64,000 nucleotides of DNA, taken from Blastococcus sp. TF02A-30 (GTDB taxonomy: Bacteria > Actinomycetota > Actinomycetes > Mycobacteriales > Geodermatophilaceae). Positions 18,761-60,610 of this stretch are shown here, piece after piece. The stretch spans positions 248,001 through 312,000 of the forward strand of contig NZ_QOHJ01000001.1 of the NCBI RefSeq assembly GCF_003319185.1, written 5' to 3'. The notes below the pieces were generated by a model. That model saw nothing but the letters and a program-made list of their open reading frames with translations, was not told the DNA's origin and did not search any database. Both the position numbers and the translations under genes were made by a program. Position 1 is the first letter of the stretch. Each line of letters begins with the position of its first letter.

Positions 18761-18774
18761 GTTCCACGTGGAAC
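18761..18774. other. parS-like ParB-binding site 1
   Basis: GTTCCACGTGGAAC is a perfect palindrome matching GTTNCACGTGNAAC, the core of bacterial parS sites. It is intergenic, between the subtilase terminator and asnB-like gene. Two further matches occur at 42446-42459 and 59908-59921. ParB binding is inferred from motif only. Confidence 0.75.
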
Positions 18775-18834
18775 AGCGTTGTTACGAGTCCGTGTGATCT
18801 TGCTCCTGGACGGGCGTGAACCGCGCGGAGCGGG

Positions 18835-18840
18835 TTAGAT
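18835..18840 (+). promoter_or_regulatory. Candidate -10 hexamer for leaderless amidotransferase transcript
   Basis: TTAGAT ends 8 bases before ATG 18849 and no Shine-Dalgarno is present. The start is independently fixed by the need for Cys at position 2, so the short distance is reliable. Confidence 0.45.
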
Positions 18841-18848
18841 CGTTCTGC

Positions 18849-20633
18849 ATGTGCGGCCTCTGCGGCGAGATCACGTTCGACGGCTCGACGGCTGACACGA
18901 CGGCCGTCGCCCGCATGGTGGAGGCCCTGGTCCCCCGGGGTCCGGACGGCCAGGGCTCGTGGAGCAACGGGCGGGTGGCCTTCGGGCACCGGCGGCTGTC
19001 GGTCATCGACCTGTCCACCTGCGGCTCGCAGCCCATGGTGGACAACGAGCTGGGCCTGACCGCGGTCTTCAACGGCTGCATCTACGACTACAAGGAGCTG
19101 CGCGCCGAGCTCGAGGGCCACGGCTACCGCTTCTTCTCGCACAGCGACACCGAGGTGATCCTCAAGGGCTACCACCACTGGGGCGTCGACGTGGTCGACC
19201 ACCTGCACGGGATGTTCGCCTTCGTCATCGCCGAGCGGGACACCGGCCGGGTGGTCATGGCCCGCGACCGGCTGGGCATCAAGCCGCTCTACCTGAGCGA
19301 GACGCCCGGCAAGCGGCTGCGCTTCGCCTCCACGCTGCCCGCGCTGCTGCGCGCCGGCGAGGTGGACACCTCGATCGACCCGGTGGCGCTGCACCACTAC
19401 CTGACCTGGCACGCCGTCGTCCCGGCGCCGCGGACCATCCTCAACGGCGTCCGGAAGCTGCCGCCGGCGACCGTGCGGGTGATCGAGGCCGACGGCACCA
19501 GCCGCGAGCACCGGTACTGGAACGCCACCTACGAGCGCCGAGCCGAGCACGCGGGCTGGTCGGCCCGCGACTGGGAGGACGCGATCGAGGAGGCGCTGCG
19601 GGTCGCCGTCCGCCGCCGGCTGGTCGCCGACATCCCGGTCGGTGTGCTGCTCTCCGGCGGGCTGGACTCGAGCCTGATCGTCGGCCTCCTCGCCCAGGAG
19701 GGGCAGACCGGACTGGCCACCTACTCGATCGGCTTCGAGTCCGCCGGCGGCCGCGAGGGCGACGAGTTCCAGTACTCCGACGTCATCGCCGAGCACTTCG
19801 CCACCGACCACCACCGCATCCGGGTCGGCTCCGACGAGCTGGCCGGCGCGCTGGGCCACGCGATCGGCGCGATGGCCGAGCCGATGGTCAGCCACGACGT
19901 CGTCGCCTTCGACCTGCTCAGCGAGCGGGTCTCGCAGTCGATCAAGGTCGTGCAGTCCGGCCAGGGCGCCGACGAGGTCTTCGCCGGCTACCACTGGTAC
20001 CCGCCGCTGGCCGGCGTCGGTCGCGAGGAGGCGGTGCAGACCTACGCCACGGCCTTCTTCGACCGCGACCACGCGCAGATGTGCCAGGTCGTCTCCGGCC
20101 GCTACATGCTCGACCAGGACCCGAGCCTGGCGTTCGTGCGCGACCACATGTCCGCCCCCGGCGCGGAGACCGCGGTGGACGCAGCGCTGCGCCTGGACAG
20201 CGAGGTCATGCTGGTCGACGACCCGGTGAAGCGGGTCGACAACATGTCCATGGCCTGGGGCCTGGAGGCGCGCGTCCCGTTCCTCGACCACGACCTCGTC
20301 GAGCTGGCCGCGCTCTGCCCGCCGGAGCTGAAGCTCGCCGACGGCGGCAAGGGCGTGCTCAAGGCGATCGGCCGGCGGATCATCCCGCCGGAGGTCATCG
20401 ACCGGCCCAAGGGCTACTTCCCGGTGCCGGCGATCACCCACCTCGAGGGCAAGGTGCTCGACCTGGTGCGCGACGCGCTCACCGACGACGCCGCCCGCGA
20501 ACGGGGCCTGTTCCGCCCCGAGTACGTGCAGGAGCTGCTCGCCGACCCCAACGGCGAGCTCACCCCGCTGCGCGGCAACAAGCTCTGGCAGCTCGGCCTG
20601 CTGGAGCTCTGGCTGCAGAACCACGGTGTCTGA
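18849..20633 (+). CDS. asnO: N-acetylglutaminylglutamine amidotransferase (asparagine synthase family)
   Basis: Probable amidotransferase that converts the terminal carboxylate of N-acetylglutaminylglutamine to the amide, giving the osmolyte NAGGN. Of 594 residues, the N-terminal class II glutaminase begins MCGLCGEITFDG, with Cys2 as nucleophile once Met is removed; this fixes ATG 18849 over an in-frame GTG at 18816. The synthase domain carries the PP-loop LLSGGLDSSLI near residue 270. The neighbour encodes the GNAT/ATP-grasp partner, overlapping by 8 bases; that pairing separates it from ordinary AsnB. Confidence 0.88.
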   Translation: MCGLCGEITFDGSTADTTAVARMVEALVPRGPDGQGSWSNGRVAFGHRRLSVIDLSTCGSQPMVDNELGLTAVFNGCIYDYKELRAELEGHGYRFFSHSDTEVILKGYHHWGVDVVDHLHGMFAFVIAERDTGRVVMARDRLGIKPLYLSETPGKRLRFASTLPALLRAGEVDTSIDPVALHHYLTWHAVVPAPRTILNGVRKLPPATVRVIEADGTSREHRYWNATYERRAEHAGWSARDWEDAIEEALRVAVRRRLVADIPVGVLLSGGLDSSLIVGLLAQEGQTGLATYSIGFESAGGREGDEFQYSDVIAEHFATDHHRIRVGSDELAGALGHAIGAMAEPMVSHDVVAFDLLSERVSQSIKVVQSGQGADEVFAGYHWYPPLAGVGREEAVQTYATAFFDRDHAQMCQVVSGRYMLDQDPSLAFVRDHMSAPGAETAVDAALRLDSEVMLVDDPVKRVDNMSMAWGLEARVPFLDHDLVELAALCPPELKLADGGKGVLKAIGRRIIPPEVIDRPKGYFPVPAITHLEGKVLDLVRDALTDDAARERGLFRPEYVQELLADPNGELTPLRGNKLWQLGLLELWLQNHGV

Positions 20634-22401
20634 GGAGATGACCACGGCACCCCGGCTGGCCGGTCACCGCCGTCGCACGGCGGTGGCGTCCACGCCCGAG
20701 CTGACCAGCCGGTCCTGGCACGAGCCGACGGCGCACGAGATCGAGGGCATGGCCTCCGACGTCGTGCTCGACCTGGGCTGGGGGCAGCTCGTCTTCGGCC
20801 AGACCTTCCGCGACCTGCGCGGGGTCGTCGACGTGCTGCGCGCCGAGGAGACCGGCCGGCGCGACATCTGCGTCTACCCGCGCGATCCGCAGGTCCTGGT
20901 CGGGATGGCGCCCGACGAGCTGTTCATCGACCCGTCGCTCACCTACCGGCTGGACCTGCACCGCTACCGCGCCCGCCCCGAGGTGATCCGCGGCGTCTTC
21001 GTGCGGACCGTGACCTCGCAGGCGGAGATGGAGGTCATCAACGACCTCTACTCGCGCAACGGCATGGTGACCGCGGACGCCACGACCATGTGGGCCAACC
21101 ACCGCACCCGAACCTTCACCTACCTGGTGGCCGAGGACACCCGCACGGGCAAGATCGTCGGCACGGTCACCGGCGTCGACCACGTGCTCGCCTTCGGCGA
21201 CCCGGAGGGCGGCACCAGCCTGTGGTGCCTGGTCGCCGACAAGCAGGACGCTCCCCCCGGCACCGGTGAGGCGCTGGTCCGCGTGCTGGCCGAGCGCTAC
21301 GTGGCCCGCGGCCGGGCCTACCTGGACCTCTCGGTCATGCACGACAACACCCCGGCGATCACGCTGTACCGCAAGCTCGGCTTCACCCGGGTCGCCGCCG
21401 TCTGCGTGAAGCGGAAGAACCCGATCAACACCCCGCTGTTCGCCGCACGGCCGCCGGGGCTGGAGAAGCTCAACCCCTACGCGCTGATCATCGCCGAGGA
21501 GGCGCTGCGGCGCGGGATCCGCGTCGAGGTCACCGACGCCGACTGGGGCGAGATGCGGCTGACCCTGGGCGGGCGCTCCGTGCTCACCCGCGAGTCGCTC
21601 TCGGAGTTCACCACCGCGGTGGCGCTGAGCCGCTGTGACGACAAGCGGGTGACCCGCCGGATCATGCGCCGCGCCGGGGTGCGCGTGGCCCAGGGGGCGC
21701 TGGCCTGCGAGGGCGACCTGGACGACGCCCGGGCGCTGCTGCGCGGCGTCGGCGACGTCGTCGTGAAGCCCGCACGGGGGGAGCAGGGCCGGGGCATCAC
21801 CGTCGGCGTCAAGGACGAGGCGGCCCTGGAGCGGGCGGTGGCGTTCGCGCTGCAGTTCTGCCCCGACGTGCTGGTCGAGGAGCGGGTCGAGGGTGAGGAC
21901 CTGCGGGTCGTCGTCATCGACCGCGAGGTGGTGGCCGCCGCCGTCCGCCGTCCGGCGGAGGTCGTGGGCGACGGGCGGCACGACGTCGCCGCGCTCGTGC
22001 GCTCCACCAGCCGCCGCCGCGAGCGGGCGACCGGCGGGGAGTCGCGGATCCCGCTGGACGACACGACCGCCGAGGTCGTCGCCGAGTCCGGGTACGCGAT
22101 GGACGACGTCCCGCCGAACGGCGAGCGGGTGCAGGTCCGGCGGACGGCGAACCTGCACACCGGGGGCACGATCGAGGACGTCACCGACCAGCTGCACCCG
22201 GAGATCGCCGAGGCGGCCATCCGGGCGGCCGAGGCGCTGGGCATCCCGGTCACCGGCATCGACTTCCTGGTGCCGGCGGTCGACGGCCCCGACTACGTGT
22301 TCATCGAGGCCAACGAGCGCCCCGGCCTGGCCAACCACGAGCCGCGGCCCACGGCCGAGCGCTTCGTCGACCTGCTCTTCCCCGAGACCCGCCGCCGTTG
22401 A
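20626..22401 (+). CDS. ngg: N-acetylglutaminylglutamine synthetase (GNAT plus ATP-grasp)
   Basis: A bifunctional enzyme that makes the acetylated dipeptide N-acetylglutaminylglutamine. Of 591 residues, a GNAT acetyltransferase domain covers about 120-270 (YLVAEDTRTGKIVGTVTGVD, DLSVMHDNTPAITLYRKLGF). An ATP-grasp ligase covers about 325-585, with VVKPARGEQGRGITVGV, VEERVEGEDLRVVVI and a metal-binding YVFIEANERPGLANH. The fusion and its place after the amidotransferase match known NAGGN loci. GTG 20626 is kept; ATG 20638 is an alternative. The third gene often found in such loci, a peptidase, is missing. Confidence 0.9.
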   Translation: MSEEMTTAPRLAGHRRRTAVASTPELTSRSWHEPTAHEIEGMASDVVLDLGWGQLVFGQTFRDLRGVVDVLRAEETGRRDICVYPRDPQVLVGMAPDELFIDPSLTYRLDLHRYRARPEVIRGVFVRTVTSQAEMEVINDLYSRNGMVTADATTMWANHRTRTFTYLVAEDTRTGKIVGTVTGVDHVLAFGDPEGGTSLWCLVADKQDAPPGTGEALVRVLAERYVARGRAYLDLSVMHDNTPAITLYRKLGFTRVAAVCVKRKNPINTPLFAARPPGLEKLNPYALIIAEEALRRGIRVEVTDADWGEMRLTLGGRSVLTRESLSEFTTAVALSRCDDKRVTRRIMRRAGVRVAQGALACEGDLDDARALLRGVGDVVVKPARGEQGRGITVGVKDEAALERAVAFALQFCPDVLVEERVEGEDLRVVVIDREVVAAAVRRPAEVVGDGRHDVAALVRSTSRRRERATGGESRIPLDDTTAEVVAESGYAMDDVPPNGERVQVRRTANLHTGGTIEDVTDQLHPEIAEAAIRAAEALGIPVTGIDFLVPAVDGPDYVFIEANERPGLANHEPRPTAERFVDLLFPETRRR

Positions 22402-22405
22402 AGGA

Positions 22406-22454
22406 CCCCCTGCCCCCCACCACTCGCACGCTCGTGGTGGGGCCCTGCAGGGGG
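22406..22454. terminator. Nested bidirectional hairpin between convergent genes
   Basis: An inner perfect 9-bp stem CCCCACCAC (22415-22423) / GTGGTGGGG (22434-22442) sits inside an outer 8-bp stem CCCCCTGC (22406-22413) / GCAGGGGG (22447-22454). It separates the plus-strand NAGGN operon from the minus-strand CoA-transferase-family gene. Confidence 0.8.
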
Positions 22455-22462
22455 CCGTTCCA

Positions 22463-23566: not shown

Positions 23567-23658
23567 GGCTGCTCCTCCCCTGCCCCGGACCGCGCCCGTG
23601 CGACCCTGTTCCGCGCATGCTGCCGCATCGCGGGGGCCGATCTGCAGGAGGGCGGGCG

Positions 23659-24386: not shown

Positions 24387-24400
24387 CCGGCGCTCATGGG

Positions 24401-24406
24401 TAGGGT
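24401..24406 (+). promoter_or_regulatory. Candidate -10 hexamer upstream of otsA
   Basis: TAGGGT lies 10 bases before ATG 24417, 14 bases after the crcB stop. No Shine-Dalgarno is seen. A very short leader or none is inferred, so otsA would have its own promoter despite following crcB closely. Confidence 0.4.
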
Positions 24407-24416
24407 CGGTACCGGT

Positions 24417-25828
<1,412 letters not shown>

Positions 25829-25832
<4 letters not shown>

Positions 25833-28488: not shown

Positions 28489-28510
28489 GCGATCCCGACC
28501 TTCCCCTGGC

Positions 28511-30397: not shown

Positions 30398-30411
30398 GCC
30401 ACCGGCTCGGG

Positions 30412-42445: not shown

Positions 42446-42459
42446 GTTGCACGTGGAAC
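42446..42459. other. parS-like ParB-binding site 2
   Basis: GTTGCACGTGGAAC within TGTTGCACGTGGAACA matches tGTTNCACGTGNAACa at every fixed position. It lies in the short gap between the che terminator and the convergent anti-sigma gene. Confidence 0.8.
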
Positions 42460-42464: not shown

Positions 42465-42926
42465 TCAGGCGGGGACGGCCGCCCGCTCGTCGGAGGCGCT
42501 GGGCAGGCACGCCCACACGTGCTTGCGACCGCCGTCGACGTACCAGCCGTGCGCCAGCGACATGAGCGCGACCATGTGCAGCCCCAGGCCGCCCTGCGCG
42601 GGATCGCGGTCGACCGCCGGGGTGGGCATCACCTCGGGGGAGTGGTCGCTGACGTCGAGCAGCCACCCGCCGCTGCCGGCGACGACCGTGGCGACGACCG
42701 GCCTCTCCCCGTGCCGCAGGGCGTTGGACGCCAGCTCGTCGAAGGCGAGGACGACCTGCTCACCGGAGGGGTCGTCGTCCTCGACCGGGCACCCGGCGCC
42801 GCTCAGCCGCGCGCGCAGGCGGGCACGGGCGGCGGGCAGGTCGCCGAGGGCGCGGAGGTCCCACCGCCACACGTCGCCGCGGCCGTCCGGGCGCGACCGC
42901 AGCGGCCACGTCAGACGTCGTCCCAT
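42465..42926 (-). CDS. ATP-binding anti-sigma-factor-like protein (HATPase_c, RsbW-like)
   Basis: A small GHKL ATPase of 153 residues of the kind that binds sigma factors or phosphorylates an anti-anti-sigma protein. The N box FDELASNALRHG lies near 62-73 and a G-rich ATP lid GGLGLHMVALM near 112-122. GGGGGAGG precedes ATG 42926. It follows a SpoIIE-type phosphatase gene after 86 bases on the same strand, a classic partner-switch arrangement. No STAS protein or sigma gene is nearby. Confidence 0.82.
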   Translation of the reverse strand: MGRRLTWPLRSRPDGRGDVWRWDLRALGDLPAARARLRARLSGAGCPVEDDDPSGEQVVLAFDELASNALRHGERPVVATVVAGSGGWLLDVSDHSPEVMPTPAVDRDPAQGGLGLHMVALMSLAHGWYVDGGRKHVWACLPSASDERAAVPA

Positions 42927-43012
42927 GCCTCCCCCTCGGGTGCCCTCTGCTGGACCAGAGCCGGGATGCCCAGCGGAGCGGGCCGAAAACCGGTCGTGCG
43001 GAGCAACCTGGC

Positions 43013-44686
43013 TCACACCGCGGAGAGGCGGACGGCGACGAGCGCGACGTCGTCCTGGGGGGTGCCGGTGAGCATGCGCTCGAGCACCAGGCCGCAGAGC
43101 TGCTCCAGCGGCCGGCCGGCCAGCCCGCGCAGGGATCCGGCCAGCCGTTCGAGCCCCTCGTCGAGGGTGCCGTCGCGGCGCTCGACCAGGCCGTCGGTGT
43201 AGAGCAGCACCGTCGTCCCCGGCGGCAGCTCCACCAGCCGCTCCCGCCGCCCGGCGTCGCCGTCCACCCCCAGCATCAGGTCGCCGACGGGATCCCCGAG
43301 GACGGTGACCGTGCCGTCGGGCGCCAGCGCCATCGGCGGCGGGTGCCCCGCGTTGCACAGCCGCATCCGGGCGAGCGATCCCGTGCCGGACCGCTCGAAC
43401 CGGGCCACCGCCGCGGTGGCCAGGGTGTCGGTGTGCATGTCGCACATCGCCCGGTCGAGCCCGTGCAGCACCTCGGCCGGGCCGGCGCCGCTGTGGTGCG
43501 CGATGCCGCGCAGGAGGCCGCGCAGCTGCCCCATCGCCGCGGCCGCACGGGTGTCGTGCCCGACCACGTCGCCGATCACGATCACCGGATCGCCGGTGCG
43601 CTGCAGGAAGGCGTCGTACCAGTCGCCCCCCACGCGCGCGGCCTCCGCCGCGGGCACGTAGCGCACGGCGACCTCGGCGTCGCCGGTGTCGGGGGGATCG
43701 GTCAGCAGGCTGCGCTGCAGGGCCTCGGCCAGCTCGGCCCGGCGGTGCTGCAGGTGGACCCGGGCCACCGCCTGGCCGGCCTGCACCGCGACCTGGCGGG
43801 CGGTCTCCAGGTCCTCGTCCCGGACCGCCCGGTCCCGGTCGTGGTAGAGCGTCAGGACGCCGACCGGCCGGCCCTCGGCGAGCAGCGGCAGCACCACCGC
43901 GGTCTCCGGTCGCAGCGCCTCGAGCAGGTCGCGCGCCGGGCCGGGGCGCAGCAGCGGCAGGATCGCGCGCACCGGTTCGGTCACCGGCGTGCCCGCCGAC
44001 AGCGCCCGGGCGACGGGCGAGGTGCTGGGGAGCGTCTCCAGCCGCACCTGCGCGTACTCGGCGAGCAGCGCGCGCCGGCCGCGGTCGCGGTGCCAGGAGC
44101 CGACGTCGCGGGCACGGCCCTCGCGGTCGACGACGGTGACGATGCAGGCGTCGGTGAGCGTGGGCACCACCAGCCGGGCCAGCCGGGCGAGGGCCGACTC
44201 CGGGTCGGCGGCCTCGGCCAGCTCCGCGGTGATCCGCGAGACCAGCGCGGCGCGCGCGGTCGCCCGCCGGGCGAGGTCCTCGGCGTCGCGCCGGTCGGTG
44301 ACGTCCAGCAGGTAGACCGCCAGCCCGTGCGGCCCCGGCCACGCCCGCACCTCGTACCAGCTGTCGGCGGAGTCGGGGTGGGACGCCTCGAAGCGGACCG
44401 GTTCCCCGGTGGCGACGCAGGTCCGGTACCGCTCCTCGTAGACGCTCCCGGCGACGCCGGGGAAGGCGTCCCACAGCGACCGGCCGAGGACGTCCTCGCG
44501 GGGGAGCGCCATGAGCCGCTCGGCCTCCCCGTTGACGTAGCGGAACCGCCAGTCGTGGTCGAGCAGGCAGAACGCCGCCGGCATGCTCTCCAGGACGCGG
44601 ATCAGGTCCGCCGCGCGGCGGTCACCGGCCGGCCCGGGGATGCCCAGCGACGGGCGCGGGACGCCGGCCGGGCCTTCCGCCTGCAC
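43013..44686 (-). CDS. PAS-GAF-SpoIIE protein phosphatase (PPM type)
   Basis: A 557-residue Ser/Thr phosphatase expected to act on an anti-anti-sigma protein. A PAS domain covers about 25-140 (LDHDWRFRYVNGEAERLMAL), GAF about 165-320, and SpoIIE/PP2C about 340-557 with metal-binding VGGDWYDAFL and VIGDVVGHDTRA, then YTDGLVERRDG and DDVALVAVRL. GTG 44686 is chosen: AAGGGG lies upstream and the longer frame is Pro/Gly/Arg low-complexity. It is closely similar to the phosphatase at 57562-59730. Confidence 0.88.
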   Translation of the reverse strand: MQAEGPAGVPRPSLGIPGPAGDRRAADLIRVLESMPAAFCLLDHDWRFRYVNGEAERLMALPREDVLGRSLWDAFPGVAGSVYEERYRTCVATGEPVRFEASHPDSADSWYEVRAWPGPHGLAVYLLDVTDRRDAEDLARRATARAALVSRITAELAEAADPESALARLARLVVPTLTDACIVTVVDREGRARDVGSWHRDRGRRALLAEYAQVRLETLPSTSPVARALSAGTPVTEPVRAILPLLRPGPARDLLEALRPETAVVLPLLAEGRPVGVLTLYHDRDRAVRDEDLETARQVAVQAGQAVARVHLQHRRAELAEALQRSLLTDPPDTGDAEVAVRYVPAAEAARVGGDWYDAFLQRTGDPVIVIGDVVGHDTRAAAAMGQLRGLLRGIAHHSGAGPAEVLHGLDRAMCDMHTDTLATAAVARFERSGTGSLARMRLCNAGHPPPMALAPDGTVTVLGDPVGDLMLGVDGDAGRRERLVELPPGTTVLLYTDGLVERRDGTLDEGLERLAGSLRGLAGRPLEQLCGLVLERMLTGTPQDDVALVAVRLSAV

Positions 44687-44906
44687 CGCCCCACCCCCCT
44701 TCGCGCACCGGCGACCGGTGCTCTCTCCGCGGTGGCCCCGGGGCTGGAGCGCCCGCGCGGGCGGAGGACCCGGCGTGGCCCCCGGATTCTGGCGGCCCGT
44801 CGCGCGGCTGCCAAGGAGCCCCGTCCCGGCTCCCCGCGTCGTCCTGCGGGGTGAGTTTGTGGTCACCCAGGGTTGCGGGCATGCCGGGATCCGGTGGTGC
44901 ATGCGG

Positions 44907-48672: not shown

Positions 48673-48679
48673 GTCGAGC

Positions 48680-48794: not shown

Positions 48795-48801
48795 GGCCGA
48801 C

Positions 48802-49173
48802 GTGATCAAGTTCCTGGCCCGCGTGGTCATCCTCGCCGCGGTCTTCTACGCACTCACCTACTTCGACGTGCTGCCCGGCCTGGACATCACCGCCAACCCC
48901 GACGGCCCGCTGGGCGAGTACGGCACCTACCTGTGGATCGGGCTGATCTTCGGCGTGGTCAACGCGATCGTCGGGCCCGTGCTGCGGCTGCTGTCGCTGC
49001 CGTTCGTGCTGCTCACCCTCGGGCTGTTCCTGCTGGTCATCAACGCCGCGCTGCTGGGGCTGACCGCGGCGATCACCGACCGGATGTCCGTCGACGGGTT
49101 CGGGACCGCGGTCCTCGGCGGCCTCATCCTGGCCATCGCGGGCTGGGTGGCCGACCAGCTGCTCGACCGCTGA
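48802..49173 (+). CDS. Phage holin 4 superfamily / YvlD-like membrane protein
   Basis: A 123-residue membrane protein with four hydrophobic helices (about 4-22, 42-62, 64-90 and 98-118). GVVNAIVGPVLRLLSLPFVLLTLGLFLLVINA is typical of the YvlD/holin-4_2 family, chromosomal proteins not usually linked to phage. GTG 48802 follows TAGCGT by 7 bases; GTG 48793 is in frame but lies inside the hexamer. Function in the host is not known. Confidence 0.8.
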   Translation: MIKFLARVVILAAVFYALTYFDVLPGLDITANPDGPLGEYGTYLWIGLIFGVVNAIVGPVLRLLSLPFVLLTLGLFLLVINAALLGLTAAITDRMSVDGFGTAVLGGLILAIAGWVADQLLDR

Positions 49174-49230
49174 GCGGACGCGGCCGGCGCCGGTCGGCCG
49201 CGTCGCCGTGAGAAGTGGTGCCGATCGCAG

Positions 49231-49236
49231 TAGCGT
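49231..49236 (+). promoter_or_regulatory. Candidate -10 hexamer for leaderless glutamate dehydrogenase transcript
   Basis: TAGCGT lies 8 bases before ATG 49245 with no ribosome site. Confidence 0.45.
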
Positions 49237-49244
49237 CGGTCGGC

Positions 49245-52200
49245 ATGGCCAGCACCACCGGCGTCGTCCCGGAGACCCCGGGGCACGCACCGGATGCGGC
49301 TCCTGCGACCGGCTCCCTGACCGAGCTGGCCGCGCTGGAGGCCGCTCGCGACGAGAAGCGCCAGCTGCTCGAGGAGGCCGCGCGCGCCGCGGTCGCCGAG
49401 CTGGGCGAGGACGCCTACCCCACGGGCTGCGCACCCGGTGACCTGCCGGCGCTGCTGCGGCGCTACTACTGGAGCGAGCCCGCCGCCGAGGTGATCGGCC
49501 ACGAGCCCCGCGAGCTCGCCGAGCTCGCGCTCGGCCACGTGCGGCTCGCCGAGACGCGGCCGGTGGGCGCCGCCCTGGTCGACGTCGCCGCGTCGGCCGG
49601 CGGGCGGGCGGTCGTGCGCCTGGTCACCGACGACATGCCCTTCCTGGTCGACTCGGTCACCGCCGAGGTCGTGCGGCAGGGCTTCGCGCTGGCGCACATC
49701 GTGCACCCCGTCGTCGTGGTGCGGCGCGACGTGCGCGGGCGGATCAAGGCGTTCTGCGACGCCGCCGACGCGGCCGGCTGCGGCGCGGACGCGCTCGCCG
49801 AGTCCTGGATGGCCGTCGTGCTCGACGGGCCGCTGGACGACGAGGCGGCCGGTGACCTGGTCGCCGGCCTGCGCACCGTGCTCGACGACGTCCGCGCGGT
49901 CGACGAGGACGCCGGACGGCTGCGCACCCGGCTGCTCGACCTCGCCGACCGCCTGGCGGGGACCCCCGCCGCCCCGGGCGCCGGCGGTGACCCCGCGGAC
50001 GACCCGGCGGAGGCGGCGGAGCTGCTGCGCTGGCTGGCCGACGGCAACTTCGTGCTGCTGGGCGCGCGCGACGTGGACCTGCAGCCCGGCCGCTCCGGCA
50101 AGCAGACCGCCCGTGCCCTCCCCGGCAGCGGGCTGGGCGTGCTGCGCAGCGACGCCGACATGAGCGGCGGGGCCGGGGCGAAGGACGCCGCGGCGATGCC
50201 CGAGGCCGCCCGGGTGCCCGCGCACCACCTGCTGACGATGACCAAGGCCGACATCCGCTCGACGGTCCACCGGCGGTCGTGGCTGGACCTGGTCGCGGTG
50301 AGCCTGCCGGACGGCGACGGCGGCACCCGCCAGCACCGGTTCGTCGGCGTCTTCCCGTCGGCGGCCTACACCAGCAGCGTGCTGGACGTGCCGCTGGTGC
50401 GGCGCCGGGTGGCGGAGGTGGTCGCCCGCTCCGGGGTCCCGGCCGACAGCCACACCGGCAAGGAGCTGCTCGACGTCCTCGAGACCTACCCGCGCGACGA
50501 GCTGCTGCAGGTCGGTGCGGACGAGCTGCTGCCGGTGGCGATGGCCGTGCACCACCTGCAGGAGCGCCGGCAGACCCGGCTGTTCCTGCGCCAGGACCCG
50601 ACCGGCCGGTTCTGGTCGGCGCTGGTCTACCTGCCGCGCGACCGGTACACGACCGAGGTCCGGCTGGCGATGCAGCAGCTCCTGCTGGAGCGGCTGAACG
50701 GCACCAGCATCGAGTACACCGCCCGCTCCACCGAGTCGGTCCTGGCGCGGCTGCACTTCGTCGTCCGCGTCGCCGTCCGGCGGGGGCCGAAGCCGCCGAC
50801 GGTCGACGCCGAGGCGCTGCAGGCCGAGCTGGCCGCGGCCGCGCGCAGCTGGACCGACGACCTGCAGGACGCGCTCGCCGAGCGCTTCGGCGCCGACGCC
50901 GAGAACGTCTTCGCGCGGATCGCCGACGCCTTCCCGGCCGCCTACCAGCAGGACTTCCCGGCCGGCCGGGCCGTCGAGGACCTGGTGCGGCTGGAGGCGC
51001 TGTCCGAGGGGCAGCTGGCCATGCGGCTGTGGACGCCGGCCGGCGGCGGCCCGGGGGAGCGGCGGCTGTCGGTCTACCGGGTGGGGGAGCGGCTGCTGCT
51101 GTCCGAGGTGCTGCCGCTGCTGCAGAACATGGGCGTGGACGTCGTCGACGAGCGGCCGTACGAGATCGACCGCATCGGCGCCCCGCCGACCTGGATCTAC
51201 GACTTCGGCATCACCATCGCCCAGGCGGTCCCGCCGGCGGAGCTGCCGCTGCTGCGCTCGCTGCCGGAGCGGTTCACCGAGGCCGTGGGTGCCGTCTGGC
51301 GCGGCGACGCCGAGGACGACGGCCTGGGTGCGCTGGTCATGCTCGCCGGGCTGAACTGGCGCCAGGTGAGCGTCGTGCGGGCCTACGTGCAGTGGCTGCG
51401 CCAGGGCGGGCTGCCGTTCGGCCAGACCTACGTCGAGCGGACGCTGGCCGGCCACCCCGACGTCGTCGCCCGGATGGTCGCGCTGTTCGAGACCCGCTTC
51501 TCGCCCGGGCGCACCGGCGGCCGGGAGGAGCGGCAGCGGGTGCTGGCCGAGTCGATCCGGTCCTCGATCGGCGAGGTCGCCTCGCTCGACGCCGACCGGG
51601 TGCTCTCCTCGCTGCTGGCCGCCATCCTCGCCACCCAGCGGACCACCTACTACGCGATGTCCGCCCCGCCGCACCCGGCGCTGGCGCTGAAGATCGACCC
51701 CTCGTCGGTGCCCGACCTGCCCGAGCCCCGGCCCGCGCACGAGGTGTGGGTGAGCTCGCCCCGCGTGATGGGCGTGCACCTGCGCTTCGGCAAGGTCGCC
51801 CGCGGCGGGCTGCGCTGGTCCGACCGCCGGGAGGACCTGCGCACCGAGATCCTCGGCCTGGTCAAGGCGCAGATGGTGAAGAACACCGTCATCGTGCCGA
51901 CCGGCGCCAAGGGCGGGTTCGTGGTCAAGAACCCGCCGGCCGACGGCTCCCGCGACGCCCAGGTGGCCGAGGGGCAGGCCTGCTACCGGATCTTCATCGG
52001 CGCGCTGCTCGCGCTCACCGACAACCTGGTCGAGGGGGCTGTCGTCCCGCCGGAGAAGGTCGTCCGGCACGACGGCGACGACTACTACCTCGTCGTCGCC
52101 GCCGACAAGGGGACGGCGACCTTCTCCGACCTCGCCAACTCGGTGGCGCTGGAGCGCGGCTTCTGGCTGGGCGACGCCTTCGCGTCCGGCGGCTCGGTCG

Positions 52201-54254
52201 GCTACGACCACAAGGCCATGGGCATCACCGCCCGCGGCGCGTGGGAGTCGGTCACCCGCCACTTCCGCGAGCTCGACGTCGACGTGCAGGAGCAGGACGT
52301 CACCGTCGTCGGCGTCGGCGACATGTCCGGCGACGTCTTCGGCAACGGCATGCTGCTGTCGCGGCACATCCGGCTGGTGGCGGCCTTCGACCACCGGCAC
52401 GTGTTCGTCGACCCGACGCCCGACGCGGCGGCGTCCTTCGCCGAGCGGCAGCGGCTGTTCGCGCTGCCGCGCTCCTCGTGGGCGGACTACGACGCCTCGC
52501 TGATCAGCCGCGGCGGCGGGGTGTGGCCGCGGACGGCGAAGTCGGTCCCCGTGTCGGAGGAGATGCGCGCGGCCCTGGGCCTGCCCGGCAGCATCTCCGC
52601 GCTCAGCCCGGTCGAGCTGATCCGCGCGATCCTGCTGGCCCCGGTCGACCTGCTGTTCAACGGCGGCATCGGCACCTACGTCAAGGCGGCGTCGGAGAGC
52701 GCGCTGGACGTGGGGGACAAGGCCAACGACGCCGTCCGCGTGGACGGCGGGCAGCTGCGGGTCCGGGTCGTGGGGGAGGGCGGCAACCTCGGCCTCACCC
52801 AGCGCGGCCGGATCGAGTACGCGCTGGCCGGCGGCCGGGTGAACACCGACGCCATCGACAACTCCGCCGGTGTCGACACCTCCGACCACGAGGTCAACAT
52901 CAAGATCGCGCTCAACCGCGCGGTCGACGAGGGCCGCATCGACGCCGACGCCCGCGCCGCGCTGCTCGCCGAGATGACCGACGAGATCGCCGCCCAGGTG
53001 CTCACCGACAACCACGCGCAGAACGCCGTGCTGGCGGTCGAGACCACGTCGGCGCGCAGCCTGCTCGACGCCCACCAGCGGTTCATCCGCGCCCTGGAGC
53101 GCTCGGGCCGGCTCAACCGCGCCGTGGAGGCGCTGCCGGACGACCGGCAGCTGGCCGAGCGCCGGCGCGACGGGCAGGCGCTCACCAGCCCGGAGCTGTC
53201 GGTGCTGCTCGCCTACGCGAAGCTGCAGGCCGGGGAGGCGGTGCTGGGGTCCGGCCTGCCCGACGACCCCGCGCTGGAGGAGCTGCTCGTCGAGTACTTC
53301 CCCGCGCCGCTGCGCGAGCGCTTCCCCGCCGCGATCACCGGCCACGCGCTGCGCCGGGAGATCATCGCGACCGCGCTGACCAACCGGGCGGTCAACGTCG
53401 CGGGGGTCACCGGCCTGTTCCGGCTCGTCGAGGAGACCGGCGTCCCGCTGGCCACCGTGGTCCGGGCGCACGCCGTGGCCCGTTCGGTGTTCGGGGTCGA
53501 CGCGCTGTGGGACGCCGTGCGCCCGCTGGACAACCGGGTCGCCGCGACGGTGCAGGTCGAGCTGCGCAGCGAGGCCGGCCGGCTGGCCGAGCGGGCCACC
53601 CGCTGGCTGCTGCGCCAGCGCGACGTCAGCAGCGAGCCGGGGCCCTCGATCGGCGAGGTGACGGAGCGGTTCGCCCCGGCGGTCCAGGCGGTGCGGGCCG
53701 GGCTGCGGAGCTGGCTGCTCGGCGTCGAGGCGCGGGCCTACGCCGAGCGCGCCGGGCGGCTGGAGGAGGCGGGTGTGCCGGAGGACCTCGCCGCCGACGT
53801 CGCGGCCGCCCCGCTCATGCCGGCCGCGCTGGACCTCGCCGTCGTCACCGAGCGCACCGGGGCGCCGGTGGCCATGGCCGGGCAGGTCATGCAGTGCCTG
53901 GCCGAGCGGCTGGGCCTGGTGCCGCTGCGCGAGCTGGTGATCGCCCTGCCCCGCGACCGGCGCTGGCCGTCGATGGCGCGGGCGTCGCTGCGCGACGACC
54001 TGCAGATGGAGCAGTCCTCCCTCACCGAGGACGTGCTGAGCCTGCGCCGCGGGGACGACGACGACCCGCACGCGCTGGTCGCAGCCTGGGCCGAGGCGTG
54101 GGACCCGTCGCAGGCGCGGGCCGCGGCGCAGCTGGCCGACATCACCGGCGGCGACCGCCACGACCTGGCCGAGCTGCTGGTCGCGGTGCGCACCCTGCGC
54201 GGGCTGCGCAAGCGCCGCGAGGCCCGCCGGCTGCCTCGACCGGACGGGAAGTAG
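49245..54254 (+). CDS. gdh: Large NAD-dependent glutamate dehydrogenase (180 kDa class)
   Basis: It oxidatively deaminates glutamate to 2-oxoglutarate and ammonium. At 1669 residues it belongs to the large bacterial GDH class (about 1600). The N-terminal half (about 1-700) holds ACT-like regulatory modules, with LVTDDMPFLVDSVTAEV near 128. The catalytic part has KVARGGLRWSDRREDLRTE near 848-866, then IVPTGAKGGFVVK near 884-896 with the catalytic Lys, and VGVGDMSGDVFGNGM near 1022-1036 for NAD binding. ATG 49245 is preferred over the earlier GTG 49215. It ends before a triple-hairpin region. Confidence 0.95.
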   Translation: MASTTGVVPETPGHAPDAAPATGSLTELAALEAARDEKRQLLEEAARAAVAELGEDAYPTGCAPGDLPALLRRYYWSEPAAEVIGHEPRELAELALGHVRLAETRPVGAALVDVAASAGGRAVVRLVTDDMPFLVDSVTAEVVRQGFALAHIVHPVVVVRRDVRGRIKAFCDAADAAGCGADALAESWMAVVLDGPLDDEAAGDLVAGLRTVLDDVRAVDEDAGRLRTRLLDLADRLAGTPAAPGAGGDPADDPAEAAELLRWLADGNFVLLGARDVDLQPGRSGKQTARALPGSGLGVLRSDADMSGGAGAKDAAAMPEAARVPAHHLLTMTKADIRSTVHRRSWLDLVAVSLPDGDGGTRQHRFVGVFPSAAYTSSVLDVPLVRRRVAEVVARSGVPADSHTGKELLDVLETYPRDELLQVGADELLPVAMAVHHLQERRQTRLFLRQDPTGRFWSALVYLPRDRYTTEVRLAMQQLLLERLNGTSIEYTARSTESVLARLHFVVRVAVRRGPKPPTVDAEALQAELAAAARSWTDDLQDALAERFGADAENVFARIADAFPAAYQQDFPAGRAVEDLVRLEALSEGQLAMRLWTPAGGGPGERRLSVYRVGERLLLSEVLPLLQNMGVDVVDERPYEIDRIGAPPTWIYDFGITIAQAVPPAELPLLRSLPERFTEAVGAVWRGDAEDDGLGALVMLAGLNWRQVSVVRAYVQWLRQGGLPFGQTYVERTLAGHPDVVARMVALFETRFSPGRTGGREERQRVLAESIRSSIGEVASLDADRVLSSLLAAILATQRTTYYAMSAPPHPALALKIDPSSVPDLPEPRPAHEVWVSSPRVMGVHLRFGKVARGGLRWSDRREDLRTEILGLVKAQMVKNTVIVPTGAKGGFVVKNPPADGSRDAQVAEGQACYRIFIGALLALTDNLVEGAVVPPEKVVRHDGDDYYLVVAADKGTATFSDLANSVALERGFWLGDAFASGGSVGYDHKAMGITARGAWESVTRHFRELDVDVQEQDVTVVGVGDMSGDVFGNGMLLSRHIRLVAAFDHRHVFVDPTPDAAASFAERQRLFALPRSSWADYDASLISRGGGVWPRTAKSVPVSEEMRAALGLPGSISALSPVELIRAILLAPVDLLFNGGIGTYVKAASESALDVGDKANDAVRVDGGQLRVRVVGEGGNLGLTQRGRIEYALAGGRVNTDAIDNSAGVDTSDHEVNIKIALNRAVDEGRIDADARAALLAEMTDEIAAQVLTDNHAQNAVLAVETTSARSLLDAHQRFIRALERSGRLNRAVEALPDDRQLAERRRDGQALTSPELSVLLAYAKLQAGEAVLGSGLPDDPALEELLVEYFPAPLRERFPAAITGHALRREIIATALTNRAVNVAGVTGLFRLVEETGVPLATVVRAHAVARSVFGVDALWDAVRPLDNRVAATVQVELRSEAGRLAERATRWLLRQRDVSSEPGPSIGEVTERFAPAVQAVRAGLRSWLLGVEARAYAERAGRLEEAGVPEDLAADVAAAPLMPAALDLAVVTERTGAPVAMAGQVMQCLAERLGLVPLRELVIALPRDRRWPSMARASLRDDLQMEQSSLTEDVLSLRRGDDDDPHALVAAWAEAWDPSQARAAAQLADITGGDRHDLAELLVAVRTLRGLRKRREARRLPRPDGK

Positions 54255-54259
54255 CGCCG

Positions 54260-54387
54260 TCTGCGGTTCTCTAGCCCCTCGGCTAGAGAGAGCTAGAGCA
54301 CCGCAGAGCACGACCCGACCCAGCTTTCGGTACCGAAAGCTGACGTCGTCTGCGGCTGTCTAGCTCCGGGGCTAGACACCCGCAGAC
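54260..54387. terminator. Triple-palindrome region between convergent genes, bidirectional terminator
   Basis: Hairpin 1 (54260-54307): outer TCTGCGGT/ACCGCAGA around inner CTCTAGCC/GGCTAGAG. Centre (54322-54341): perfect palindrome AGCTTTCGGTACCGAAAGCT. Hairpin 2 (54348-54387): outer GTCTGCGG/CCGCAGAC around inner TGTCTAGC/GCTAGACA. Hairpins 1 and 2 share the CTGCGG...CTAGC...GCTAG...CCGCAG design. Five CTAG tetramers occur within about 105 bases. Confidence 0.8.
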
Positions 54388-54391
54388 GGGG

Positions 54392-55813: not shown

Positions 55814-55866
55814 GCCACGAGCGTGCCAGATGCCCGCCCGCGCGACGTCGGGCCCCGGGAGGAACG

Positions 55867-57561
55867 ATGGAGCCGATGAGCACCGACCAGGACGACACCC
55901 AGCACGGCCCGACCTTCGACGACCTGGGCCTGCGCCCCGAGCTGCTGCAGGCGCTCGGCGCCCTCGGCTACGAAGAGCCGACGCCGATCCAGCTGGAGGC
56001 GATCCCGCCGCTGGTCGACGGCCGCGACCTCCTGGGGCAGGCGGCCACGGGCACCGGCAAGACCGCCGCGTTCTCCCTGCCCGTGCTGCAGCGGCTGCCC
56101 GCGCACCGCACCGAGAGGACGCCGGCCGCGTTGGTCCTCGTCCCCACCCGCGAGCTCGCCGTCCAGGTGTCGGAGGCGCTGCACCGGTACGGCAAGGAGA
56201 TGGGCAGCCGGGTGCTGCCCGTCTACGGCGGCGCCCCGATCGTGCGCCAGCTGAAGTCGTTGCAGGCCGGGGTGGACGTCGTCGTCGCCACGCCGGGCCG
56301 GGCGCTGGACCTGGTCAACCGGGGCGCGCTCGACCTGGGCTCGGTGGCCACCGTGGTCCTCGACGAGGCCGACGAGATGCTCGACATGGGCTTCGCCGAG
56401 GACCTCGAGGCGATCCTCGACGAGACCCCCGAGGAGCGGCAGACGGTGCTCTTCTCGGCCACGATGCCGCGCCGGCTGGACGCCCTGGCCCGGCGGCACC
56501 TCCGCGACCCCGCCCGCATCACCATCGCCCGCGAGCAGGCGGCGGCCGGCGAGGCGCCGCGGGTCCGGCAGACCGCCTACGTGGTCCCGCGGGCGGCCAA
56601 GCCGGCCGCGCTGGGCCGCATCCTGGACGTCGAGTCGCCGACGGCGGCCATCGTCTTCTGCCGCACCCGGGAGGAGGTCGACACCCTCGCCGACACCCTC
56701 AACGCCCGCGGCTACCGGGCCGAGCCGCTGCACGGCGGGATGAGCCAGGAGCAGCGGGACAAGGTGATGGGCCGGGTGCGCAGCGGCACGGCGGACCTGC
56801 TGGTCGCCACCGACGTCGCCGCCCGCGGGCTGGACATCGAGCAGCTCACGCACGTCGTCAACTACGACGTGCCGTCGGCGCCGGAGTCCTACGTGCACCG
56901 CATCGGCCGGGTCGGCCGGGCCGGCCGCGAGGGCGTGGCGATCACGCTCGCCGAGCCCCGCGAGCACCGGCAGCTGAAGACCATCGAGAAGGTTGCCGGC
57001 GCGAAGATCACCGTGGAGAAGGTCCCCACGGTCGCCGACCTGCGCGCCCGGCGGCTCGACCTGACCCGCGCGGCGCTGCGCGAGAGCCTGCTCGAGGACG
57101 ACCTCGACCGGTTCCGCGTCGTCGTCGAGACCCTCGCCGACGAGTTCGACCTCGTGGAGGTGGCCCTGGCCGCGGTGAAGCTCGCGCACGAGGCCGGCGG
57201 CGGCACCGACGACGACGAGGAGATCCCGCAGGTCTCCTTCCGCCCCGACAACCGCGGCGACAAGGGCGGACGGCGTCCGGAGCGGGGCGGCGAGGGCGGC
57301 CGCGGCGGCCGGTCCTCCGGCGGTCCGGCGACGCGGCTGTGGGTGGGGCTCGGCCGCGAGGCCGGCATCCGGCCGGGCGACCTGGTCGGCGCGATCACCG
57401 GCGAGACCGAGCTGAAGGGACGCGACATCGGCTCGATCGAGATCCACCAGCGGTTCGCGCTCGTGGAGGTCCCCGAGCCGGCGGCCGACGACGTCGTCCG
57501 GGCGCTCAAGGCCACCATGATCAAGGGCCGGAAGGCGACCGTCCGCCGCGACCGCGGCTGA
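55867..57561 (+). CDS. DEAD-box ATP-dependent RNA helicase with DbpA-type RNA-binding tail
   Basis: An RNA helicase of 564 residues, likely in ribosome assembly or cold-stress mRNA handling. The Q motif is near 17-42, motif I ATGTGKT at 60-66, PTRELA near 98, DEAD at 167-170, SAT near 200, VATDVAARGLD near 318 and HRIGRVGRAGR near 345. An RGG-like linker (GGRRPERGGEGGRGGR) spans about 461-476. Residues about 488-560 resemble the DbpA/CsdA RNA-binding domain. GGGAGG precedes ATG 55867 by 4 bases; ATG 55876 is possible. Confidence 0.94.
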   Translation: MEPMSTDQDDTQHGPTFDDLGLRPELLQALGALGYEEPTPIQLEAIPPLVDGRDLLGQAATGTGKTAAFSLPVLQRLPAHRTERTPAALVLVPTRELAVQVSEALHRYGKEMGSRVLPVYGGAPIVRQLKSLQAGVDVVVATPGRALDLVNRGALDLGSVATVVLDEADEMLDMGFAEDLEAILDETPEERQTVLFSATMPRRLDALARRHLRDPARITIAREQAAAGEAPRVRQTAYVVPRAAKPAALGRILDVESPTAAIVFCRTREEVDTLADTLNARGYRAEPLHGGMSQEQRDKVMGRVRSGTADLLVATDVAARGLDIEQLTHVVNYDVPSAPESYVHRIGRVGRAGREGVAITLAEPREHRQLKTIEKVAGAKITVEKVPTVADLRARRLDLTRAALRESLLEDDLDRFRVVVETLADEFDLVEVALAAVKLAHEAGGGTDDDEEIPQVSFRPDNRGDKGGRRPERGGEGGRGGRSSGGPATRLWVGLGREAGIRPGDLVGAITGETELKGRDIGSIEIHQRFALVEVPEPAADDVVRALKATMIKGRKATVRRDRG

Positions 57562-59730
57562 TCAGGGGAGCCGCTCCGGTGGCACGTTCGGGGGCACCCG
57601 GTTGGGGCCGGCCTCGGCCGGGCGGGGCCGGTCCTGCGGGTGGAGGCGGACGGCGACGAGGGCGACGTCGTCGTCCGGGCGGCCCTGCACGAGCCGCTCC
57701 AGCAGCTCGTCGAGCAGCTCGTCCAGCGGCAGGTGCGCCAGCTCGACCAGCGCGTCGCGGAGCCGGACCAGGCCCTGATCCAGGTCGGCGTCCCGCCGCT
57801 CGACCAGCCCGTCGGTGTAGAGCAGGACCGTGGAGCCGCGGTCGAGCGTGACCACCGACTCGCGGCGCTCGGCGGCGGCGTCGACCCCGAGCATCAGGTC
57901 GCCGATCCACGCGGCCAGCTCGGCCACGCTCCCGTCGGGGTTGACGACGAGCGGCGGCAGGTGCCCGGCGTTCGCCCAGCGCATCCGGGTGATGCCGCGG
58001 TCGAACTCCTCGGGCGTCTGCTCGAAGCGGGCCACGGCCGCGGTGGCCAGGGTGCCCACCTGGAGCATCGTCATCGAGGCGTCGAGCCCGCGCAGCACCT
58101 CGACCGGTCCGGCGTCGCTGTAGGTGGCGATCCCGCGGAGCAGGCCGCGCAGCTGGCCCATCGCCGCGGCGGCGGCGGTGTCGTGGCCGACGACGTCGCC
58201 GATCACCAGCATGGTGGTGCCGCTGGGCTGGAGGAACGCGTCGTACCAGTCCCCGCCGACGCGGGCCGCCTCGGCGGCCGGCAGGTAGCGCACCGCGATC
58301 TCGGCGTGGTCGGGCTCCGGGGGATCGGTGAGCAGGCTGCGCTGCAGGCCCTCGGCCAGCTGCTGCTGGGCGCCGAAGAGGCGGGCGTTGTCCAGGGCGA
58401 GACCGGCGCGGTCGGCGACGTCCTGGGCGACGACGACGTCATCGTCCGACGGCGGGTGCCCGGCGTTGAAGAACAGGGTGAGCAGGCCGACGGTCCGCCC
58501 GCGGGCGCGCAGCGGTAGCGCCACCTCGGTGTCGGGGGCGAGCAGCGCGAGCAGCTCCTTCGCCGGCCCGGGAGGGAGCACGTCGAGCACCTCCGTGCCG
58601 CTGAAGGTCGCCGCCTGCCCGGTGTGCAGCGCCCGCGCCACCGGGGCGGTCATGGGCATGGCGTCCAGCCGCACCTCGCGGTAGCGCTCCAGCAGCGGCC
58701 GCGCGGCCGGGTCGACGTGCCAGCTGCCGACGTCGCGGGGCTGCCCGTCGGCGCCGATGACGGTGACCACGCAGTAGTCGGCCAGCGCGGGCACGACCAG
58801 CCGGGGGAGGCGGGCGGTGGCCACCTCGGCGTCCAGCGTGCCGGCCAGCTCGGCGCTGACCTGCGCCAGGATCGCCAGCTGGCGGGTCGACCGCTCCGCC
58901 CGCTCCTGGGCGGCCCGCCGCTCGGTGACCTCGAGGAAGTAGACCGACAGCCCGTCGGGCGTGGGCCAGGCGCGCACCTCGTACCAGCCGTCCAGCGGTG
59001 CGGGGTAGTACGCGTCGAAGGAGATCGGCTCGTCGCTGTCGACCGCCTTGCGGTAGCCCTCCTCGAAGACGCTGCCCACCGTGGCGGGGAAGGCCTCCCA
59101 GAGCACGTGGTCCAGCAGCTCGTCGCGGCTGCGGCCGAGGAGCCGCTCGGCCTCCGCGTTGACGTGCGTGAACCGCCACTCCCGGTCCAGCGAGTAGAAG
59201 CCGGCCGGCATCGCCTCGAGCATCCGGGTGACCCGCGTGGCCTCCTCGCGCTCGCCGGTGGTGTCGTAGGCGGCGCCGATCAGGTGGTCGGTGCGGCCGT
59301 CGGGGCCGGGGAGGTGCCGGCCGCGCGCGTGGATCCAGCGCGTCTCGCCGCCGGGCAGGACGATCCGGTACTCGACGTCGTACTCGCCGACGGTGTCCAC
59401 GCTGGCCTGCAGGGCGTCCGCGTGCCAGCGCATGTCGTCGGGGTGCACGCGGGCGTTGAAGGCGTCCAGCGACTGGTCGAAGGTGGCCGGGTCGTAGCCG
59501 AACATCCGCTGCAGCTGCTCGTCCCACAGCAGCCGCCCGGTGGACGGCTCGTAGTCGAAGGTGCCGACCTCGCCGGCCTCCTTGGCCAGCTCCCAGCGCA
59601 GCCGCTCGTGCTCGTAGCGCGCCTGCAGCTCGGCCAGCTGCTCGGCGGGGGAGAGCCCGTCCGACGGCCGCGCTCCGCTCTCCGGACCGTCGGCGGGTCC
59701 GCCGCTCGCCCGGTCGGGGGAGGGGTCCAC
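57562..59730 (-). CDS. PAS-PAS-GAF-SpoIIE protein phosphatase
   Basis: A 722-residue sensor phosphatase. A first PAS domain with PAC covers about 50-165 (FGYDPATFDQSLDAFNARVH), a second PAS about 168-280, GAF about 300-455, and SpoIIE about 475-700 with VGGDWYDAFLQP and VIGDVVGHDTAA. The region from the second PAS to the end is closely similar to the protein at 43013-44686, so they are paralogues, this one with an added PAS. AGGAAGG precedes GTG 59730. It ends directly against the helicase stop. Confidence 0.9.
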   Translation of the reverse strand: MDPSPDRASGGPADGPESGARPSDGLSPAEQLAELQARYEHERLRWELAKEAGEVGTFDYEPSTGRLLWDEQLQRMFGYDPATFDQSLDAFNARVHPDDMRWHADALQASVDTVGEYDVEYRIVLPGGETRWIHARGRHLPGPDGRTDHLIGAAYDTTGEREEATRVTRMLEAMPAGFYSLDREWRFTHVNAEAERLLGRSRDELLDHVLWEAFPATVGSVFEEGYRKAVDSDEPISFDAYYPAPLDGWYEVRAWPTPDGLSVYFLEVTERRAAQERAERSTRQLAILAQVSAELAGTLDAEVATARLPRLVVPALADYCVVTVIGADGQPRDVGSWHVDPAARPLLERYREVRLDAMPMTAPVARALHTGQAATFSGTEVLDVLPPGPAKELLALLAPDTEVALPLRARGRTVGLLTLFFNAGHPPSDDDVVVAQDVADRAGLALDNARLFGAQQQLAEGLQRSLLTDPPEPDHAEIAVRYLPAAEAARVGGDWYDAFLQPSGTTMLVIGDVVGHDTAAAAAMGQLRGLLRGIATYSDAGPVEVLRGLDASMTMLQVGTLATAAVARFEQTPEEFDRGITRMRWANAGHLPPLVVNPDGSVAELAAWIGDLMLGVDAAAERRESVVTLDRGSTVLLYTDGLVERRDADLDQGLVRLRDALVELAHLPLDELLDELLERLVQGRPDDDVALVAVRLHPQDRPRPAEAGPNRVPPNVPPERLP

Positions 59731-59863
59731 GCGTGCCTTCCTGCCGGGGATTCCCCGGGAAACTGGCCGGCGGGCCCCGGGTGCTCCGGGCCACGCCGCT
59801 CGACATGAAGTTATGTCACGCCCGCGGCCCGCTACGCAACCACGCGCAACCGCCGCGCGGCGG

Positions 59864-60610
59864 TCAGGTCGCGGGGACGACCAGCGTCAAGGCGGTGCCG
59901 CCGTCGTGTTCCACGTGCAACCCCGCCCGCCTCAGCAGCCCCCGCAGCCGCACGACGCCGTCGGGTTCCGCGGTCGTGGTGGCCAGCAGCCGCGCCAGGC
60001 GGCCCTTGTGCGCCTTGTTGAAGTGCGAGACGACGGCGCGGGTGCCGTCGGGGCGCTCGCTGAGCACCTGCACGGTGACCGCGCCCGGCACCGGGGCGAG
60101 CGCGGCGTAGGAGCCGCTGCGCAGGTCGACGACGAGGCCCTCGACGCCCGCCAGCACGGGGCCGAGCGCCGGCTTCCACAGCGCGCGCAGCGTGGGCAGG
60201 CCGGGGAGCGCGGAGCCGGCGGAGAGGCGGTAGGCCGGGATGCGGTCGGTGCCGCGGGCCAGCCCGAACAGCGCCGATCCCACGGCCAGCCGGGCGTCGG
60301 CCCGAGTCCGCTGCGCCCGCGTCATCGAGCCGACGTCGAGGGCGTCGTAGAGCACCCCGGTGTAGCGGTCGAGCGCGGGCAGCGTCGGGCTGGTCCGCAG
60401 CGCGGCGTTGCGAGCGATCTCCTCGTCCTGCGTCGGCGAGACCCCGAGCGCGGCCCGGGAGGCGGGCACGTCGTCGGCCAGCTCCACCAGCGCCTCGACC
60501 AGCTCGGTCCGCACCGGCGTGAGCTCGGGCGTGCGCAACGCGGCCAGGTCCAGCGGAGCACCGTCGCCGCCGGCGCGCTTGGTCTCCGACGGGGGCAGGA
60601 GCACGAGCAC
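59864..60610 (-). CDS. yaaA: Peroxide-stress protein YaaA (DUF328)
   Basis: A 248-residue cytosolic protein of the YaaA family, which in E. coli limits intracellular iron and oxidative DNA damage. LVLLPPSETKR opens the protein, LYDALDVGSMT near 88, LWKPALGPVLAG near 143 and SHFNKAHKGRLARLL near 193 are family blocks. GTG 60610 lies 3 bases after the exonuclease III stop, so the two are one transcript and both fit oxidative DNA damage. A parS-like site lies within its 3' part. Confidence 0.9.
   Translation of the reverse strand: MLVLLPPSETKRAGGDGAPLDLAALRTPELTPVRTELVEALVELADDVPASRAALGVSPTQDEEIARNAALRTSPTLPALDRYTGVLYDALDVGSMTRAQRTRADARLAVGSALFGLARGTDRIPAYRLSAGSALPGLPTLRALWKPALGPVLAGVEGLVVDLRSGSYAALAPVPGAVTVQVLSERPDGTRAVVSHFNKAHKGRLARLLATTTAEPDGVVRLRGLLRRAGLHVEHDGGTALTLVVPAT
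59908..59921. other. parS-like ParB-binding site 3, inside yaaA
   Basis: GTTCCACGTGCAAC matches GTTNCACGTGNAAC at all fixed positions. It lies within the yaaA coding region near its C-terminal end (codons for LHVEH). Confidence 0.7.

Follow-up and report, generated by a model that had tools for sequence, protein, structure and literature searches.

The 64,000-nucleotide stretch of the Blastococcus sp. TF02A-30 genome analysed here, referred to as the window, contains three palindromic sites of the parS type, the element recognized by the segregation protein ParB. A preliminary description of the DNA had placed these sites at positions 18761, 42446 and 59908, and all three are exact matches to GTTNCACGTGNAAC, which has 12 fixed bases, at those coordinates. 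It had also pointed to C or G instead of T or A at positions 4 and 11, which is seen in every one of them. A site with C at position 4 of both halves is a perfect palindrome (denoted C/C), and a hybrid site has G at position 4 of one half (denoted C/G). The first window site, at 18761..18774 with no strand assigned, is the C/C palindrome GTTCCACGTGGAAC and lies 98 kb from parB. The second, at 42446..42459 on the plus strand, is the hybrid GTTGCACGTGGAAC, 122 kb from parB and not clearly coding. The third, at 59908..59921, is the same hybrid on the minus strand, 139 kb from parB. No additional site with at most one mismatch is present in the 64 kb.

Three sites are far more than chance would supply. 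The excess proposed in the preliminary description stands, but its figure of 0.004 matches per 64 kb assumed equal base use, which does not hold at the window GC content of ~74%. At the composition of the window, the 12 fixed bases would be expected to match ~0.0008 times per 64 kb and 0.05 times in the whole genome. Dinucleotide shuffles of the window (n = 100) averaged 0.02 matches, and no shuffle contained three. Across the first 400 kb of C11, the contig that includes the window, 179 alternative palindromes, each built from a permutation of the six fixed letters of the half-site, had one match in total, compared with 17 for parS. A reversed control pattern has no exact match in the whole genome. 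Together, the shuffles, the permuted palindromes and the reversed-pattern controls rule out chance or composition as the source of the sites.

The sites occupy varied surroundings. Pfam matches identify the neighbours of the first site as a subtilase gene, which ends at 18639, and an asparagine-synthase gene. A minus-strand frame that matches HATPase_c_2 has its 3′ end beside the second site. The third falls near the 3′ end of a YaaA-family gene (PF03883, E 7.8e-35; 59864..60610, minus strand), where it codes LHVE in the reading frame; this is a host gene outside the segregation system. On the minus strand at 42465-44902, a gene for a SpoIIE phosphatase with PAS and GAF domains overlaps an open frame that is read in a different frame and has a HATPase_c_2 match in its C-terminal part; the arrangement looks like a phosphatase/anti-sigma-factor pair. 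Very long open frames overlap on both strands at 48927-54311 (1,794 aa minus, 1,679 aa plus). The window has no Rfam matches.

An origin-proximal array and its ParB

The host genome (G000) measures 4.13 Mb in 38 contigs, and the window corresponds to C11:248001-312000. Exact GTTNCACGTGNAAC matches number 17, all on C11 (24,979-354,744), and cover 330 kb, or 8% of the genome, from −143 to +186 kb relative to parB. Two of them lie 33 bases apart just upstream of parA. The sole HTH_ParB match of the genome is at C11:168452 and the sole DnaA C-terminal match at C11:161205. Origin proximity, suggested from the window alone, is therefore borne out, with the window ~80-144 kb to one side of parB. An even spread over the genome, named beforehand as the finding that would speak against the sites, was not found, given that all 17 share a single contig of 891 kb with dnaA and the sole ParB-HTH gene. 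Each of the 23 genomes of the genus has 10-17 sites and no match to the control.

The ParB protein exceeds the cut-offs of PF02195, PF17762 and PF23552, which cover its N-terminal, HTH and dimerisation domains, matches solved ParB structures, and is encoded beside a ParA gene of the AAA_31 type. Its translation includes the stretches GERR and ENIHR, which we take to be ParB features. The nearest named relatives are from Blastococcus sp. (85%), followed by other Geodermatophilaceae. Weak second HTH_ParB matches occur in the genomes G004, G009, G014, G015 and G021, with G004 having two, on C14 and C33; these suggest extra ParB-like proteins, perhaps plasmid- or island-borne.

Allowing one mismatch adds four places in the host genome, of which C11 has three. 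At this tolerance the control matches seven times genome-wide, so near-matches are inseparable from background by number. One such near-match, GTTCCACGGGAAAC at C11:213309-213322 (+45 kb from parB, outside the window), lies near the place of an intact C/C site in G006, G007 and G011. It may be a decaying parS, its orthology with the C/C sites of these relatives being putative.

The window sites have counterparts in relatives. At the third site (C11:307908), the same hybrid is found at the aligned place in G007, G011, G065 and G095, that is, in all four relatives compared, which span three genera. For the first site, G011 has C/C at the aligned place and G007 has C/C near the homologous flank. 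The second site is the same hybrid at the aligned place in G011, despite only 44% similarity in the flanking 60 bases. In G007 the alignment has a gap here, and an intergenic C/G site at that location is a candidate ortholog.

The window sites are predicted to belong to the parS array near the origin that serves the chromosomal ParABS system of this Blastococcus-like member of the Geodermatophilaceae. Very likely, the sites form a docking array for separating copied chromosomes. At its core this is an ordinary parS array, on top of which lies a zoned composition.

The family form of parS

The order was surveyed with 120 genomes drawn evenly, 16 from Geodermatophilaceae and 104 from other families, and counts in this and the genus survey were taken from per-genome tables. 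The 16 family genomes have 7-15 GTTCCACGTGGAAC and 2-10 GTTGCACGTGGAAC sites each, and GTTTCACGTGAAAC in none. Among the 104 others, GTTCCACGTGGAAC is found in 32, GTTGCACGTGGAAC in 2, and GTTTCACGTGAAAC in 91. C in place of T at position 4 is a family-wide trait. The lineage-specific form suggested in the preliminary description thus holds for the family within its order but not more widely, since other phyla are known to use the same form as parS. GTTCCACGTGGAAC is bound by Myxococcus xanthus ParB in vitro (PMC3778016), is the Pseudomonas aeruginosa parS in vitro and in vivo (PMC4368675, PMC5098823), is given for Pseudomonas putida and M. xanthus (PMC7022226), and is the ParB site of Bdellovibrio bacteriovorus (PMC10547168). 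No work on parS in the family was found among the papers listed on parS sites for Blastococcus or Geodermatophilaceae.

GC content alone does not produce the shift to C. Mycobacterium parB loci have only T at position 4. Micromonospora parB loci, with GC contents of 69-72% and one locus at 63.5%, have T in 70 of 76 half-sites, and because these GC-rich loci mostly keep T, GC alone is ruled out as the cause. GC content may still contribute. Two Actinomycetospora loci of 75% GC carry C/C and C/T sites, and their ParB helix residues are as usual.

The ParB of the family has also changed. Among 80 loci compared, one of which (L061) has no row, family members have Ser and Thr at two positions of the DNA-binding region in 16 of 17 rows each, the remaining row (L036) being in the wrong frame; the others have Pro in 62 of 63 and Arg in 63 of 63. 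In the family parB (L016:970-2019; residues 211, 212, 225 and 228), the region reads RSRSQV and VKVQTRV, compared with RSRPxV and VQRRV in the other families of the order. The Ser directly follows the residue equivalent, by eye from the alignment, to Caulobacter R173, which contacts base 1 (PMC7383237). These changes possibly arose as a co-change with C at position 4 of parS. They are not required for C, because Actinomycetospora has C sites without them.

Zoning of perfect and hybrid sites

The composition of the array varies with distance from parB. Eleven of the 23 genus genomes have all of their sites listed, and nine of these form the zoning set, the fragmented G002 and G005 being left out. 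Sites on other contigs are omitted for G001 (3), G003 (3), G006 (1) and G011 (1), and for G007, G009 and G021 the circular lengths are rounded or approximate, which puts distances across the start off by up to a few kb. The 113 sites of the nine genomes comprise 70 C/C, 33 C/G, nine C/T and one G/T, with G/G absent. C/C sites lie at a median of 40 kb from parB and C/G sites at a median of 131 kb; 55 of the 70 C/C sites and a single one of the 33 hybrids fall within 60 kb of it. Permuting labels within each genome gives p < 0.05 in eight of nine.

Zoning extends beyond the genus. In two other genera the permutation gives p 0.001 for G065, whose stretch begins 55 kb left of parB, and p 0.01 for G095, where the test covers fetched stretches with a 60-kb gap and leaves out the C/G sites at 2254346 and 2508675. 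In two further genera, hybrids lie beyond the range of the C/C sites of the same contig by eye among the matches listed (four in G130, one on contig C14 of G074). The orientation of hybrids relative to the fork follows no clear rule by eye. Titles and abstract openings of the literature on weak, degenerate or distal parS sites, and of the comparative work listed, do not report such zoning; the pattern of perfect sites nearer the origin and hybrids farther out, with exceptions, looks new.

Sites with G in both halves are nearly absent. The 16 family genomes have none, against 7.8 expected from the frequency of G with independent halves, and 112 family genomes have two, against 0.85 by composition, which puts the form close to chance level. 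A site thus seems to need one C half, in agreement with the half-site peaks of P. aeruginosa ParB, which are mostly GTTCCAC and GTTTCAC, with GTTGCAC not in the main text of that report (PMC10419367).

Zoning would need no function of its own if selection were relaxed far from the origin, the outer hybrids being recent or in decay and the C/C sites inside old and strongly kept. Turnover does differ in this way at several places. The motif of the outer site C11:325169 is absent at the aligned place in all four relatives and that of 92971 in G007 and G095, the inner sites 181210 and 231210 are kept in all four, and 24979 is C/C in the host and C/G in G007. Even so, this explanation is on the unlikely side, given that hybrids are conserved as hybrids not only at 307908 but also at 354731 (G007, G011 and G065) and 36497 (G007 and G011). 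Decay should moreover yield T and A, yet the 226 half-sites of the nine genomes include 10 T, no A and 34 G, and G/G sites should occur too.

A further alternative is that the sites are functional parS and that hybrids result from coding constraint, without graded function. In five genomes, with clearly coding sites set by a rule on GC content at third codon positions (GC3), 20 of 42 C/C and 19 of 28 C/G sites are clearly coding. Where a gene needs leucine, the motif can persist only with GTTG or GTTA (TTG-CAC-GTG-GAA, Leu-His-Val-Glu), and all 19 coding hybrids are in the frame [L/F]HV[E/Q], as LHVE in 14 and FHVQ in five. The coding C/C sites read FHVE (13), STWN (6) and VPRG (1). A leucine requirement can account for some hybrids, and the absence of the whole motif from relatives at 325169 also agrees with coding constraint. 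As a full account it is improbable: leucine gives no explanation for the five FHVQ sites, and the near-absence of G/G is unpredicted. The nine hybrids not clearly coding are nonetheless far out, at a median of 102 kb compared with 40 kb for the 22 C/C sites not clearly coding (p 0.0009, subject to shared ancestry).

It is extremely improbable that the palindromes are targets of another protein, either Noc or a CACGTG-binding regulator: CACGTG is indeed a core used by other factors and ParB scores 228 bits on the Noc model TIGR04285, but that score is below the cut-off of 315, the ParB domain model passes (211 vs 58), and the sites lie within genes as well as between them. A Noc system was rejected on this score and on base 6 of the half-site, which is A in 17 of 17 sites and C in NBS-type sites, and residues equivalent by eye to Caulobacter R173 and G201, typical of ParB, are present (PMC7383237).

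A proposed graded centromere and its parallels

The explanation favoured here is a 17-site parS array over 330 kb, with C/C sites inside, C/G sites outside, and graded strength. As a whole it is highly probable, graded strength being its least certain part. By analogy with ParB studied elsewhere, ParB dimers would dock at a site, take up CTP, close into clamps and slide onto the neighbouring DNA. ParA would then move the ParB-coated origin, and ParB would recruit SMC. A half-site with G at position 4 may bind more weakly, which is again among the less certain steps, and the C/C sites near the origin would then be the main nucleation points, surrounded by a weaker rim of hybrids. If hybrids are weaker, ParB and SMC would load mainly at the C/C core. 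Strong sites far out may be selected against because they would compete for segregation or SMC loading, and sites with two G halves may be too weak to be kept.

Studies of other bacteria make such selection plausible. The fitness cost of an extra parS in Caulobacter grows with its affinity (PMC5815017), and P. aeruginosa is harmed by a parS distant from oriC (PMC5098823). Clustering of strong sites in Bacillus subtilis has been proposed to avoid SMC collisions (PMC8357415). A more specific proposal is that one parS base encodes centromere strength, with a C/C core ~100 kb to either side of parB, a C/G rim and G/G excluded. Together with the family ParB region RSRSQV (in place of RSRPxV), this base would set ParB nucleation and SMC loading. 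We hold this proposal tentatively, with slightly more doubt than confidence.

Several observations weigh against a graded array. G003, which has one C/G site, gives p 0.30, and the pooled nine-genome value (p 1.6e-12) overstates the evidence because site states are inherited. C/C sites lie far from parB at −143 kb in G000, −149 and −106 kb in G003, +176 kb in G004, −116 kb in G006, and +97 and +255 kb in G095. Conversely, C/G sites lie near at −39 kb in G000 and +46 and +57 kb in G065. The G of 14 of the 28 hybrids in the five genomes may stem from a leucine codon, and some of the zoning could arise from decay or coding constraint. Sites with two mismatches in P. aeruginosa are unbound in vivo (PMC5098823), so hybrids might be unbound altogether. 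In Caulobacter, the zone tolerating extra parS follows the parS cluster and not ori (PMC5815017). The cumulative GC skew, with its minimum at 140 kb and dnaA at 161 kb, was too noisy and was dropped for placing the origin. Finally, ParB binding to the sites in the family is predicted, and the weaker binding of C/G sites is presumed.

Known systems share features with the graded array. The P. aeruginosa sites parS1-parS10 have the core TGTTCCACGTGGAACA, with the best-bound perfect or near-perfect sites close to oriC and diverged sites of lower in vitro affinity elsewhere (PMC4368675, PMC5098823). In P. aeruginosa, however, activity is confined to four sites near oriC, and the diverged sites carry two mismatches, most of them at positions other than 4. 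Blastococcus has 10-17 sites per genome over hundreds of kb, and its outer sites differ at one half-site position. M. xanthus, of a distant phylum, shares the consensus GTTCCACGTGGAAC and has 24 sites near ori (PMC3778016), whereas the sites of the host genome are spread out to either side of parAB and dnaA over ~330 kb. In B. subtilis the sites extend across ~0.75 Mb with strong ones clustered (PMC8357415), but strength there was determined by chromatin immunoprecipitation (ChIP), and according to PMC4368675 no link between sequence and affinity was seen; in Geodermatophilaceae one base position tracks the zones. The canonical form in related actinobacteria, GTTTCACGTGAAAC, as tabulated for Mycobacterium smegmatis (PMC7022226), belongs to the same order and shares the parAB neighbourhood and the 12 fixed bases, but has T at position 4. 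T/T sites in several genomes of the order are packed into a few kb, such as seven in 3 kb in G037 among the matches listed.

These results provide the right parS form for annotating these actinobacteria, since a search with GTTTCACGTGAAAC has no match in any of the 16 family genomes surveyed. With inner and outer sites tending to be set apart by a single base in many species, the idea that a strong centre is surrounded by a weak rim is open to direct testing.
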